Origin: Pseudomonadales bacterium
Lineage (GTDB): Bacteria; Pseudomonadota; Gammaproteobacteria; Pseudomonadales; Azotimanducaceae
DNA: 47,468 bases
Assembly (NCBI GenBank): GCA_007122315.1
Contig: SKUB01000125.1
Span: 1-47,468 of the forward strand
Direction of reading: 5' to 3'
The notes under the pieces are model-generated. The model was not told the DNA's origin and made no database searches. It worked only from the letters and a program-made list of their open reading frames with translations. Shown here in pieces: positions 12,846 through 20,206 of the stretch. Each line of letters opens with the position of its first letter. Within the stretch, counting starts at the first letter, position 1. The translations under genes were made by a program, and so were the position numbers.

Positions 12846-14468
12846 TCACTCCTGAATCGCTTCGTCCGGTTCAGCGAACTCATCGAGGTCCTGTTCGGGC
12901 TCCTTTTTCGCTTCCTTCTTGGCGTCCTCGGCGGCCGTGGCGTCGAGATAGAACTCCTGATCGCCGTAGTAGTTGTCGATGGCGTGCTCCGAGGACACCG
13001 GGCTCAGGTAGTGCCGGTCGGTGAGTCCTTCCTTGCGCATGGCGAGCCCGGTCAGGCAGGCCTTGACGATGTGGGCGCTGTTGAGGACGGTCATGTAGGT
13101 CGGATCAAGCGCCGGATGCAGTTCGATCAGATCGAAACCGATGACGTTCGACTCTGCACACAGCCGCCGCACGATGGTGATGGATTCCCGCATGGTCATG
13201 CCACCGGACACCGGCGTGCCGGTGGCGCGCATGTAGGCCGGGTCCACCACGTCGATGTCGAAGGAGATGAACAGCTTTCTGCCATCCTCGCTGGCCTCGG
13301 CCACCACCCGGTCGAGTACCGCCTCCCAGCCGCGCCGTTCGATTTCGGCCATGGTGTGGTAGCGCATGCCGTTTTCGCGCATCCACTTGAATGCCGCCCG
13401 GTCAGGACCACTCGAGCGCAGCCCCATCTGAATGTAATCGGAGATGCGGACGTGGCCTTCGTTCAGGAGCCGGTAGACGGGCGCGCCATGGCTGATCAGG
13501 TGCGGTGATCCCCACCAGGCATCGTAGTGGGCGTCGAAGTGGATGACGCTCAGCCGCTCCTTGCCGTAGACGTCGGCGAGGCCGGCGATGTTCGGGTAGG
13601 ACAGCGAGTGGTCGCCACCGATGATCAGCGGTACGGCGCCGGTCTCGGCGATTTCGCGCACGACCCGGCGAACCTCCTGCATGGACCGCTCAGTGCTGTC
13701 GTTGTCGATGGCGATGTCGCCGTAGTCGACGATGTTCAGGACCTTGCTGGCATCCACCTGCACGTACTGGTCGGCGCTGCCCATGGTCCCGCCGAGGACG
13801 CGCATCTCCGTGGTGCTCTGACTGCCGGAATCACGCCAGGCGGAGCCCATGTTCAGCGGCGCACCTACGATGACCGCCTCCACTTCACCCGCAATCAGGT
13901 CCTCCGGCGTCAGTGCCAGCGGAAAGCCGCCGAACGTGGGCGGTCCGCCGCGACCGTCGTAGCGGCCGAGTCCGATGGGACCGGCCTCACGCTCCGGATC
14001 CATGGAGCGGGGGCGGACCATGCGCCAGGCATTGAACTCCGGGGAATCGGTATTCAACGGAATGTTCGGCAAATCCCGACCTTCCTTGTAGCGGCTGCCC
14101 TCCACCACGTGGATCATGGCCTGCACCCAGGCCTGGATGTTCTCGGGCGAGCGCTTCTCCAGTTCTTCCATCGTCTTTTCGAGGTCGCCTGCGAAGCGGC
14201 GGGCGTCGCCGCTTTGGAGGAAGGCGATTTCCTCTTCGGTGAGCAGTTCCAGCTTCGGCATCACCTCCTCGGGCAACTCGATGCCGGGCCGTTCCTCTTC
14301 GCGAGGATCGACGGTGTCGAAGGGATACGGATTGGTACCGACCACGTGTTCCGGCGTCTCCGGAGGCTCGGCTGCGACGGGCGTGGCCGCCGCAAAGCCT
14401 GCCAGCAGAAGGAAACTGATCAGGGCAGTGCCCCAGCGGGTGGTACGAGGCGCGGATTCGGACGGCAT
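12846..14468 (-). CDS. exported ureohydrolase (agmatinase/arginase fold) with intact metal site
   Basis: A 540-residue protein with a signal peptide (hydrophobic core about 15-29, cleavage near VAA33). The ureohydrolase domain occupies roughly 180-490. All binuclear-metal ligands are present: His287 (GGDH), Asp312, His314 and Asp316 (DAHYD), Asp404 and Asp406 (DID), plus Glu449 in LIELHP. It should hydrolyse a guanidino compound to urea and an amine outside the cytoplasm; agmatine, arginine or guanidino acids are all possible. A 140-residue N-terminal extension and a charged lysine/glutamate tail (after 510) are unusual. GGAG lies 8 nt before the ATG. It is the second gene of a pair, 55 bp after a degenerate paralogue. 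Confidence 0.87.
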   Translation of the reverse strand: MPSESAPRTTRWGTALISFLLLAGFAAATPVAAEPPETPEHVVGTNPYPFDTVDPREEERPGIELPEEVMPKLELLTEEEIAFLQSGDARRFAGDLEKTMEELEKRSPENIQAWVQAMIHVVEGSRYKEGRDLPNIPLNTDSPEFNAWRMVRPRSMDPEREAGPIGLGRYDGRGGPPTFGGFPLALTPEDLIAGEVEAVIVGAPLNMGSAWRDSGSQSTTEMRVLGGTMGSADQYVQVDASKVLNIVDYGDIAIDNDSTERSMQEVRRVVREIAETGAVPLIIGGDHSLSYPNIAGLADVYGKERLSVIHFDAHYDAWWGSPHLISHGAPVYRLLNEGHVRISDYIQMGLRSSGPDRAAFKWMRENGMRYHTMAEIERRGWEAVLDRVVAEASEDGRKLFISFDIDVVDPAYMRATGTPVSGGMTMRESITIVRRLCAESNVIGFDLIELHPALDPTYMTVLNSAHIVKACLTGLAMRKEGLTDRHYLSPVSSEHAIDNYYGDQEFYLDATAAEDAKKEAKKEPEQDLDEFAEPDEAIQE

Positions 14469-14523
14469 CAAACAATCTCCGGGGCGTCGACGCGGATCGG
14501 GGACACAGGACAACCGGTCGGCA

Positions 14524-15918
14524 TCAATCCTGTTCATGATCGAGCGCCAGCGGATGGACGTAGTCAGTCGTGAGGCCGGCCGCCCGTGCGGCCATTCCTG
14601 TGAGGCAGGCATTGAGAATGGCGTTGGCGTTCAGCGCGGAGAGTCGTGAGTAGTCGAGCATCGGCGACATGTCGGTGATTTCGAAGCCGACGATTTCCTT
14701 GGCCCCGCAGAGATGGCGGATGGCGTTGGTGACCTCCTGCACTCGCAGGCCGTTGGTGGCGATGCGGCCGGCGGCGATCATGTCCGAGGGCTCGATGACG
14801 CTGACGTCGATGGAGACGAAGAGCTTTTCGGGACCTGCTGCCACCTCCCGAAGTACGCGCTCGAGCACGGCGTCGTAGCCGTGCTGCCGAACCGCAGCCA
14901 TGGTGTGGTAGCGGACGCCCTGGCTGCGCAGCCACTGCAGGTTGTCAGCGGTGACGTCCTTGCCGCGCAGGCCGACCTGGATCATGGCGTCACCGGCGAC
15001 GATGCCTTCGTTCAACAGCAGGAATATGGCCTGGGTGTCGGAGATGGTGTGGACCGCGCTGCGGTGCACGTCCGGGTGAGCGCTGAAGTGCACGAGACCG
15101 AAGCTGCCCGAACCGTGGTGGCGGGCGACACCCTGCACGCCCGGATACAGCATGGAGGTGTCGCCGCCCACCAGCATGGGAACCGCGCCGGTGGCAGCCG
15201 TCTCCGCGACCATGTCGGCGACGTGGCCGATGGTCCGTGCGGTGCTCATGTTATCCGTCGAGAAGTCGCCATAGTCGACCACGGAGAGGACGTCCAGGGG
15301 ATTGAGCAGGGTCTGCACGTCCGGCGTGGCGATGGTGTTCAACGCCCGCATCACGCGCGGTCCGTATTTGGCGTTGCGCCTGCCGCTGCCCATGTCGTTG
15401 GGGATGCCGATGATGGCGACGTCGACGTTGCCGGCCACCAAGTCCTCCGGGTAGATCGCCACCATGGCCCCGGCGAAGGTCGGGACGCCGGACTCCGGGA
15501 AGATGTAACGATGCACGCTGAAGGGCCCGGGTTCGCGTTGGAGCTTGCGCAACGGTTCCGGGGTCGGAATGGTCCCGGCGTTGAAACGGTCGGAGTCCAG
15601 GTTCAGCGGAATGGCGCCCATGTCCCGCTCCGGGTCGTAGCCCATCTCGGCGGCCACCTGCATGAGATCGTTGACGAAGGACGCAAGCGACGCGGCGTCG
15701 CGGGTGGCGATCTCGTGCTCGAGCTGCCTCGGTGGCAGGAACTGCAGCGCCGCGCCGCCCGTGACGAAACGGCGCTGCTCGGGTTCGAGGGCGGCGACCT
15801 CGTCGTGAAGCTCGGATGGCAGCTCCCAGTCGGCGGCGAGGAGGCTGCCTGCAGATAACAGGAGTGCGCTCGCAAGTGCGGCACTCGCGAGTCGCGCGCG
15901 GATGGGTGGGCCGTTCAT
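14524..15918 (-). CDS. exported ureohydrolase-like protein with degraded metal site (probable pseudoenzyme)
   Basis: A 464-residue paralogue of the next gene, with its own signal peptide (core 11-28, cleavage near LAA29). The fold-defining segments align, but ligands are changed: GGDT (Thr254 for His), SAHPD (Ser279 for the first Asp; His281 and Asp283 kept) and DVS (Asp371 kept, Ser373 for the second Asp). Three of the six metal ligands are therefore missing, while the frame is intact over the full length. That pattern suits a structural or regulatory partner of the active enzyme rather than a decaying gene. It shares the upstream ~PLNLDSDRFNA motif with its neighbour (PLNTDSPEFNA), so both descend from one long-form ancestor. 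GGAG stands 8 nt before the ATG. Confidence 0.85.
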   Translation of the reverse strand: MNGPPIRARLASAALASALLLSAGSLLAADWELPSELHDEVAALEPEQRRFVTGGAALQFLPPRQLEHEIATRDAASLASFVNDLMQVAAEMGYDPERDMGAIPLNLDSDRFNAGTIPTPEPLRKLQREPGPFSVHRYIFPESGVPTFAGAMVAIYPEDLVAGNVDVAIIGIPNDMGSGRRNAKYGPRVMRALNTIATPDVQTLLNPLDVLSVVDYGDFSTDNMSTARTIGHVADMVAETAATGAVPMLVGGDTSMLYPGVQGVARHHGSGSFGLVHFSAHPDVHRSAVHTISDTQAIFLLLNEGIVAGDAMIQVGLRGKDVTADNLQWLRSQGVRYHTMAAVRQHGYDAVLERVLREVAAGPEKLFVSIDVSVIEPSDMIAAGRIATNGLRVQEVTNAIRHLCGAKEIVGFEITDMSPMLDYSRLSALNANAILNACLTGMAARAAGLTTDYVHPLALDHEQD

Positions 15919-19884: not shown

Positions 19885-20021
19885 ACGGTTGGCTCCCGAC
19901 GGACAGCCGGCACGTGGGCGGTGAGACTTGCACAGACGACGGCCTGGAGCACGCGGGCGACGCAGAAATACCATGAGAAGCCGGAGGCCGGATCTTGGCT
20001 TGCGGCAGAAGGGTAAAGCTC

Positions 20022-20198
20022 GCTCCCCGGAGGTGCCGCTGTCGATATTGTCCTTGAACCCAAACAGTTCAAGGTGGAGGTTCAGGCGATCCCTCAGGCT
20101 TTCCGACGCGCGGACATGCACACCGGGATCTGCACTTCACCCCCTGGTACCACATAAGGCTCGAGGACGTGCACCGACTGGCGAGCATCCCAGGGAAC
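20022..20198 (-). ncRNA. ssrS: 6S RNA
   Basis: The 340-bp gap between zapA and the cyclo-ligase gene holds sequence that matches 6S RNA in order and in landmark. Reading leftward: a 5' closing arm CCCTGGGATGCTCGC (from 20195), GTCCTCGAGCC, then GTGTGCATG...CGGAAAGCCTGAGG, then the hairpin CCTTGAAC/GTTCAAGG (20074-20052, 7-nt loop), and a 3' arm CAGCGGCACCTCCGGGG (ending near 20024). E. coli 6S has the corresponding CUCUGAGAUGUUCGC, CCCUGAGCC, GAGCAUGC...GAGAAGCCUUA, CACCUUGAACC...GGUUCAAGG and GGCGGCAUCUCGGAG. The arms pair in the first 7 positions, then with mismatches. The role is sequestering sigma70 RNA polymerase in stationary phase. The ends are estimates, about 177 nt long. Confidence 0.85.
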
Positions 20199-20206
20199 GA
20201 GGGTCG

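Follow-up and report, generated by a model that had tools for sequence, protein, structure and literature searches.

A conserved pair of exported ureohydrolases, one of catalytic type and one with a rebuilt active site, in Gamma- and Alphaproteobacteria

We analyzed a 47,468-nucleotide stretch of DNA (the window), which is contig SKUB01000125.1 (C300) of the 3.99-Mb draft genome of a Pseudomonadales bacterium from the family Azotimanducaceae (assembly GCA_007122315.1). It carries two neighboring minus-strand genes, D and, 55 bp downstream, A, both of which encode arginase-fold proteins. The catalytic set of a ureohydrolase (six metal ligands, a His, and a Glu) is complete in A, whereas D misses three ligands together with the His and the Glu. 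The two are a real, conserved enzyme/pseudoenzyme pair of exported ureohydrolase. This is supported by export-type N-termini, a common module and fold, same-strand adjacency, purifying selection, a D clade that mirrors the partner A, and an intact active site in A versus a rebuilt one in D, all computed directly. The features of the pair are as follows.

14524..15918, minus strand: D, exported pseudo-ureohydrolase, 464 residues (open reading frame; Arginase PF00491, 160.7 bits; AlphaFold2 mean predicted local distance difference test score [pLDDT], 88.8)
15835..15918, minus strand: predicted Sec-type signal peptide of D, about residues 1 to 28 (sequence reading and hydrophobicity scan of homologs; cleavage site inferred)
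15424..15834, minus strand: N-terminal module of D, residues 29 to 165, common to A (alignment; model helices and pLDDT)
14608..15423, minus strand: arginase-fold domain of D (PF00491 match; fold matches to solved ureohydrolases)
15157..15159, minus strand: D Thr254, at the position of A ligand His287 (residue reading and alignment)
15082..15084, minus strand: D Ser279, at the position of A ligand Asp312 (residue reading and alignment)
15037..15039, minus strand: D Asp294, at the position of A catalytic His327 (alignment; Asp in 61/61 D)
14800..14802, minus strand: D Ser373, at the position of A ligand Asp406 (residue reading and alignment)
14764..14772, minus strand: D Ala383-x-Arg385, at the position of A Thr416-x-Thr418 (alignment columns)
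14671..14673, minus strand: D Asp416, at the position of A catalytic Glu449 (alignment)
14469..14523, minus strand: gap of 55 bp between the D stop and the A start
12846..14468, minus strand: A, exported catalytic-type ureohydrolase, 540 residues (open reading frame; PF00491, 229.8 bits; AlphaFold2 mean pLDDT 82.9)
14370..14468, minus strand: predicted Sec-type signal peptide of A, about residues 1 to 33 (sequence reading and hydrophobicity scan of homologs; cleavage site inferred)
13056..13880, minus strand: arginase-fold domain of A (PF00491 match)
13608..13610, minus strand: A His287, metal ligand (residue reading and alignment)
13521..13535, minus strand: A Asp312, His314, and Asp316, metal ligands (residue reading and alignment)
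13488..13490, minus strand: A His327, presumed catalytic His (alignment; role by homology to arginase)
13251..13259, minus strand: A Asp404 and Asp406, metal ligands (residue reading and alignment)
13122..13124, minus strand: A Glu449, presumed substrate-binding/catalytic Glu (alignment; role by homology)

The six ligands of A and the Thr254, Ser279, and Ser373 of D had been named, with their coordinates and strand, in the original prediction, and all are correct in the numbering of the 540-residue frame. D keeps the other three ligands (His281, Asp283, and Asp371). The roles of the catalytic His and Glu are those that we take to hold from work on arginase. The open frame of A extends upstream to 14612-14630, inside D. 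We place its start at the ATG at 14468 because of the signal peptide and because some homologs have a frame that opens only past the D stop (e.g., L092, L105, and L108); the 55-bp gap follows from this choice. The same genome encodes a third ureohydrolase, on contig C383, in which the catalytic set is complete.

A mixed A/D alignment was used to search for homologs, each species being represented by one genome. At least 316 encoding stretches were found and the best 77 loci were kept, so counts over these named loci lean toward nearer relatives. Among the 77 are 34 loci of the window type (D1-A1), 21 with other A-D arrangements, 4 with two intact copies, and 18 with a single A, of which at least 3 (L091, L102, and L129) end at a contig edge where a D may be missing. 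The other arrangements include A-D-A-D quartets in Pseudohongiella. The degenerate copy had been described as the first gene of the operon; this is true of the window subtype, whereas in all the other D subtypes seen D is preceded by an A.

D consistently occurs beside A. When distances are taken between open-frame bounds, a same-strand A lies no more than 700 bp away for 60 of the 61 D in the window and the named loci; L094, the one exception, is an artifact caused by an overlong open frame. Measured between aligned cores, every one of the 61 D is paired, with a largest gap of 334 bp. This set of 61 came from a search anchored on A and D jointly. A search with a D profile through 137 genomes of one family returned 31 D-like matches (by bit score) in 15 genomes; no orphan D was present among them, as all 31 have an A-like match within 500 bp. 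Residues were checked for one match per genome; each of these 15 proved to have the D pattern and to lie next to an A with an intact site. In thinner samples, the D profile at E 1e-80 matched 1 of 369 genomes at class level and 2 of 398 at phylum level, the query genome being counted each time, and the sole non-query match proved to be an intact A. In the order, A at E 1e-40 matched 11 of 390 genomes, again counting the query genome. The family is thus rare at broad sampling. The co-occurrence of both copies in other genomes, raised in the original prediction, is borne out; in the one family and the thin class- and phylum-level samples searched with the D profile, we found no D with these substitutions that lacked an active neighbor.

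The differences between A and D are concentrated in the pocket. We compared alignment columns between 49 D and 70 A sequences (10% dereplicated), using a threshold of at least 90% fixation in both groups. Only five columns are fixed in both but to different residues (A to D): His327 to Asp294, Asp406 to Ser373, Thr416 to Ala383, Thr418 to Arg385, and Glu449 to Asp416. As judged by homology, all five are active-site positions. The D class was itself defined by positions 406 and 449, and the A class by the full catalytic set; the independent evidence is therefore the D-side letters at 327, 416, and 418. The catalytic-His column is Asp in 61/61 D, and the Glu column is Asp in 60 and Gly in 1. Column 418 is Arg in 60/61 D (Gln in 1) and column 416 is Ala in 58/61, versus Thr at both in 95/95 A. 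The same Thr-x-Thr is found in 23 of the 24 other ureohydrolases of the order, all of which keep the six ligands, the His, and the Glu. D proteins differ in how many of the six ligands they have lost, from one in L152 to five in L120. Random decay would not produce such a near-uniform pocket. An earlier description of D as ligand-deficient is thus accurate for the three lost ligands and understated for a clade with five pocket columns fixed to other residues. Our guess from the sequence is that Arg385 might fill the empty metal site through salt bridges to aspartates. Two other variants were seen: a single exported member at L038:4843-6366 (minus strand), next to a foldase, HupE, and a TonB receptor, has six ligands and Ala at the catalytic-His position, and a ureohydrolase at L023:1201-2469 (plus strand) has Trp at the guanidinase-Trp position.

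Despite these changes, D is confidently predicted to retain the ureohydrolase fold. Both proteins pass the PF00491 cut-off of 22 bits, and both miss that of the NCBIfam agmatinase model TIGR01230 (174.3 bits), with A at 148.2 and D at 76.9. The D model matches 1gq6 at Z 38.8 (root mean square deviation of 1.9 over 291 residues) and metformin-hydrolase chains at Z 38.1; solved ureohydrolases score Z 31-39 among the 50 matches listed. The first 105 residues of the model are hardly covered by these matches, and we therefore do not propose a novel fold for the N-terminal module. In the AlphaFold2 model, about 65 residues of confidently predicted helices precede the arginase fold, followed by a less ordered stretch, and residues 29-137 have no sequence relative in the PDB (best E 0.25).

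Both N-termini combine positive charge with a hydrophobic stretch. A hydrophobicity scan, on which the export call is based, finds such a stretch in 58/58 D and 92/94 A with enough N-terminal sequence, a further three D and one A being too short to score. Together with the alignment, this upholds the earlier view that both proteins are exported and have an N-terminal module in common. Furthermore, a Cys pair (Cys437/Cys471 of A) is present in 95/95 A and 60/61 D, the odd D row being gapped at the second position. It is found in 0/24 other ureohydrolases of the order as aligned, every one of which is gapped at the first Cys. As read from the sequence, the pair fits an extracytoplasmic disulfide. 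A lipobox-like motif was detected by pattern in 15/61 D, several of them probably spurious, versus 3/95 A. The D partners at L134:10247-11806, L137:1168-2799, and L138:4096-5565 have this motif and may be lipoproteins.

D is maintained by selection. The ratio of nonsynonymous to synonymous substitution rates (dN/dS; Nei-Gojobori) was computed for 15 pairs among six genomes of the genus, with some codons ahead of the start left in the alignments; D has values of 0.09-0.19 and A of 0.07-0.16. Values this far below 1, with the full length of the gene, rule out D as a pseudogene or decaying gene; a ratio near 1 was the outcome that had been named in advance as speaking against a maintained D. We built a quick maximum-likelihood tree from 75 family members and one outgroup. 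In it, a branch with a Shimodaira-Hasegawa-like approximate likelihood ratio test support of 99 separates 35 D from all other sequences. The A proteins beside D group together with weaker support (84) and fall into the same three subgroups as D. Distances among D also track those among partner A (Mantel r of 0.954 for all 49 dereplicated pairs and 0.752 for the 28 pairs of the window subtype, each reached by 0 of 2000 permutations), although the comparison has no unrelated control gene and shared genome descent therefore explains part of r, even within the window type. Several subtypes coexist in one genome, and thus the deep agreement between D and A suggests that pairs duplicated as units. 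Within the window subtype, D has evolved somewhat faster than A (mean distance of 0.344 vs 0.233). The part of the original prediction that cast D as a maintained partner rather than a pseudogene is therefore upheld by purifying selection, co-occurrence, a single clade, and co-divergence.

We consider it probable that D and A are two subunits of one exported ureohydrolase, with D as a metal-free structural subunit. The predicted complex, metal, and substrate would be as follows. A and D would assemble into a heteromer outside the cytoplasm, in which A would hold a two-metal center and release urea and an amine by hydrolysis of a guanidino compound. D would support or cap A, by analogy with what MetCb/MefH-beta does for MetCa/MefH-alpha in metformin hydrolase. 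In that enzyme family, active and metal-free ureohydrolase subunits form a heterohexamer and either alone is inactive (PMC11271267 and PMC11399263), and three to five ligands differ in the deviant subunit (PMC11271267).

The likeness to MetCaCb (= MefH = MfmAB) and DmgH (PDB 8ryi, 8snf, and 8x3g) lies in adjacent genes, of which one has kept all six ligands and the other has lost several. In those enzymes the deviant subunit is metal-free, and by analogy D may be so too. Urease genes also follow the DmgH cluster (PMC11399263), a further resemblance. There are also differences. Ligand loss in D ranges from one to five of six, compared with the three to five given for the deviant subunit of that family. 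A and D are exported, whereas section 11 of PMC11271267 and the Discussion of PMC11399263 make no mention of exported pairs. The known enzymes adjoin HypA/HypB nickel chaperone genes, while a foldase and HupE/UreJ recur beside A/D relatives of other subtypes. D scores 48-54 bits against metformin-hydrolase chains (phmmer) and 283 bits against A (blastp), two different programs. Since D is far nearer to A than to either metformin-hydrolase chain, the A/D pairing probably arose separately. A search for MetCb relatives matched 425 plasmid records; of three examined among the 60 listed, two were annotated and hold single genes without a partner, and the third is unannotated.

Other known ureohydrolases resemble the pair less. 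The best-scoring solved sequence for both A and D is 7esr, from the group of GdmH and the comammox guanidinase (7esr and 9fek), which are single-gene enzymes, unlike the A/D pair, and are described as nickel-dependent. The Trp proposed to matter for guanidine hydrolysis (W313; PMC11410670) aligns in 7esr with Thr418 of A and with Arg in D. We considered A as a guanidinase and rejected this prediction, because Thr418 stands at the Trp position, which speaks against guanidine itself being hydrolyzed by A. Agmatinase, guanidinobutyrase, and proclavaminate amidinohydrolase have the same fold and, as regards A, all catalytic residues; A falls below the agmatinase cut-off, however, and the Cys pair sets A and D apart from the other ureohydrolases of the order as aligned. 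Arginase-like proteins that lack a metal center, such as that of Trypanosoma brucei, have the ureohydrolase fold and lost ligands, like D, and reportedly stand alone. We know of no active neighbor for them. Phrase searches of open-license papers found no exported ureohydrolase pair.

Four other explanations were weighed. D could have a role of its own outside the cytoplasm, in binding, sensing, or metal delivery, with a ligand held in its pocket (Asp294, Asp371, Ser373, Arg385, and Asp416) and only the operon and substrate in common with A. The near-uniform, non-random pocket substitutions fit a kept binding function, and the lipobox-like motif of some D may mean that these have their own membrane anchoring. 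Such a role is nevertheless at odds with the strong co-divergence of D with its partner A and with the lack of any orphan D among the genomes searched. Other ligand positions also differ between D subtypes, which a tuned metal site would not permit. We regard this explanation as unlikely, although not negligible. It is very unlikely that D retains a different catalysis that uses a single metal or no metal: D keeps Asp371, in many cases also His281 and Asp283, and is under purifying selection, but the catalytic His is Asp throughout D, one to five of the six ligands are gone, and the Glu is replaced (its loss being part of the D definition), while the 24 other ureohydrolases of the order keep all of these residues. 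Harder still to credit is that A and D are separate, functionally unlinked homo-oligomers and that D is drifting; the somewhat faster evolution of D in the window subtype is what drift would give, but the low dN/dS, full length, adjacency, and co-divergence already disfavor it. Least probable of all is the decoy alternative of the original prediction, taken here to mean that D binds a competitor or inhibitor and so shields A: we found no support for it, no dedicated test having been run. Those window neighbors that match Pfam look like housekeeping genes, and the 20 window proteins scanned include no inhibitor-like family.

The interpretation of A and D as subunits of one enzyme was also examined against gene neighborhoods. 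Around the pair in the window lie rpiA, threonine dehydratase, an FAD oxidase, a 2-hydroxyacid dehydrogenase, DUF3429, and one protein without a match; the Pfam-matching ones are housekeeping in type. No HypA or HypB/cobW type was found among the scanned neighbors in the window, and other loci were not searched for HypA/B. Recurring neighbors in other subtypes are a TonB receptor, a PpiC-type foldase, HupE/UreJ, UrtA/UrtB, and urease genes. Urease matches occur in 4/4 loci with two intact copies, 6/18 with a single A, and 4/21 with other A-D arrangements; the respective counts are 0/4, 1/18, and 8/21 for Urt and 1/4, 6/18, and 10/21 for foldase plus HupE. These marker counts stand without a random-gene control and, given contig ends and one query per marker, are lower bounds. 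In the related clusters, Urt would import the urea and urease would cleave it, with nickel as the likeliest metal.

Several observations weigh against the two-subunit interpretation or its link to urea. The 34 loci of the window subtype include no urease or Urt match and only 3 with foldase plus HupE. Among 24 genomes checked, 18 have a urease alpha and 16 a UrtA match over the cut-off; G1216, G1231, G1254, G1264, and G1265 carry the window subtype (residues confirmed) and have neither. HupE/UreJ is present in 24/24 genomes, and therefore its presence alone tells little. Many A occur without D, as in the single-A loci (allowing for those cut by a contig end), and A-type enzymes in general therefore need no D. 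The part of the Mantel correlation due to shared descent counts here too, and the structure models cover A and D as single chains rather than as a complex. We dropped a urease link for the window subtype, given 0/34 loci, yet genome G000 has urease alpha and UrtA on another contig. Urea assimilation is thus a reasonable context for the wider family, but the window-type loci give no sign of it.

A fuller scenario, which we put forward only tentatively, is that of an extracytoplasmic heteromeric ureohydrolase that evolved apart from metformin hydrolase. A TonB receptor would import a guanidino compound or chelated nickel into the periplasm, where one or two catalytic/pseudo pairs would free urea with the help of a dedicated foldase and HupE/UreJ, and Urt and urease would finish the pathway. 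In D, a near-invariant Arg held by Asp residues would take over from the metal cluster as the structural core of the inactive pocket. If this is true, the periplasm would be a site of urea release, tied in several genomes to urea uptake and urease. If A/D does form a heteromer, a single fold has given rise more than once to the enzyme/pseudoenzyme design, in this case in an extracytoplasmic setting. The family spans Gamma- and Alphaproteobacteria, named strains included, and its 49 dereplicated natural pairs, with their graded ligand loss, offer material for asking what a pseudo-subunit does.

Related arrangements were also noted. L126, L141, L147, and L148 encode tandem exported ureohydrolases with both sites intact and urease genes in the locus, and the two members at L126, L141, and L148 fall in different tree subgroups. 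A shorter relative, with frames of ~410-450 residues that match only from D-profile position 114-120, occurs at L177-L191, in one copy each, in many genomes of one genus. Within Pseudohongiella-type clusters, L119, L121, L123-L125, L128, and L130 encode a HupE/UreJ with a predicted mature N-terminal His, a feature of “anglerase” domains (PMC12537917). We rejected such a HupE as a general partner, as the pattern appears in 7 of the 20 HupE frames tested, several of which were wrong. Guanidine riboswitch control was likewise set aside, with none among the three gathering-level Rfam matches in five sources (the window and four loci). The window does encode a 6S RNA at 20020-20199 (minus strand; RF00013, 92.4 bits), which adjoins a 5-formyltetrahydrofolate cyclo-ligase gene.

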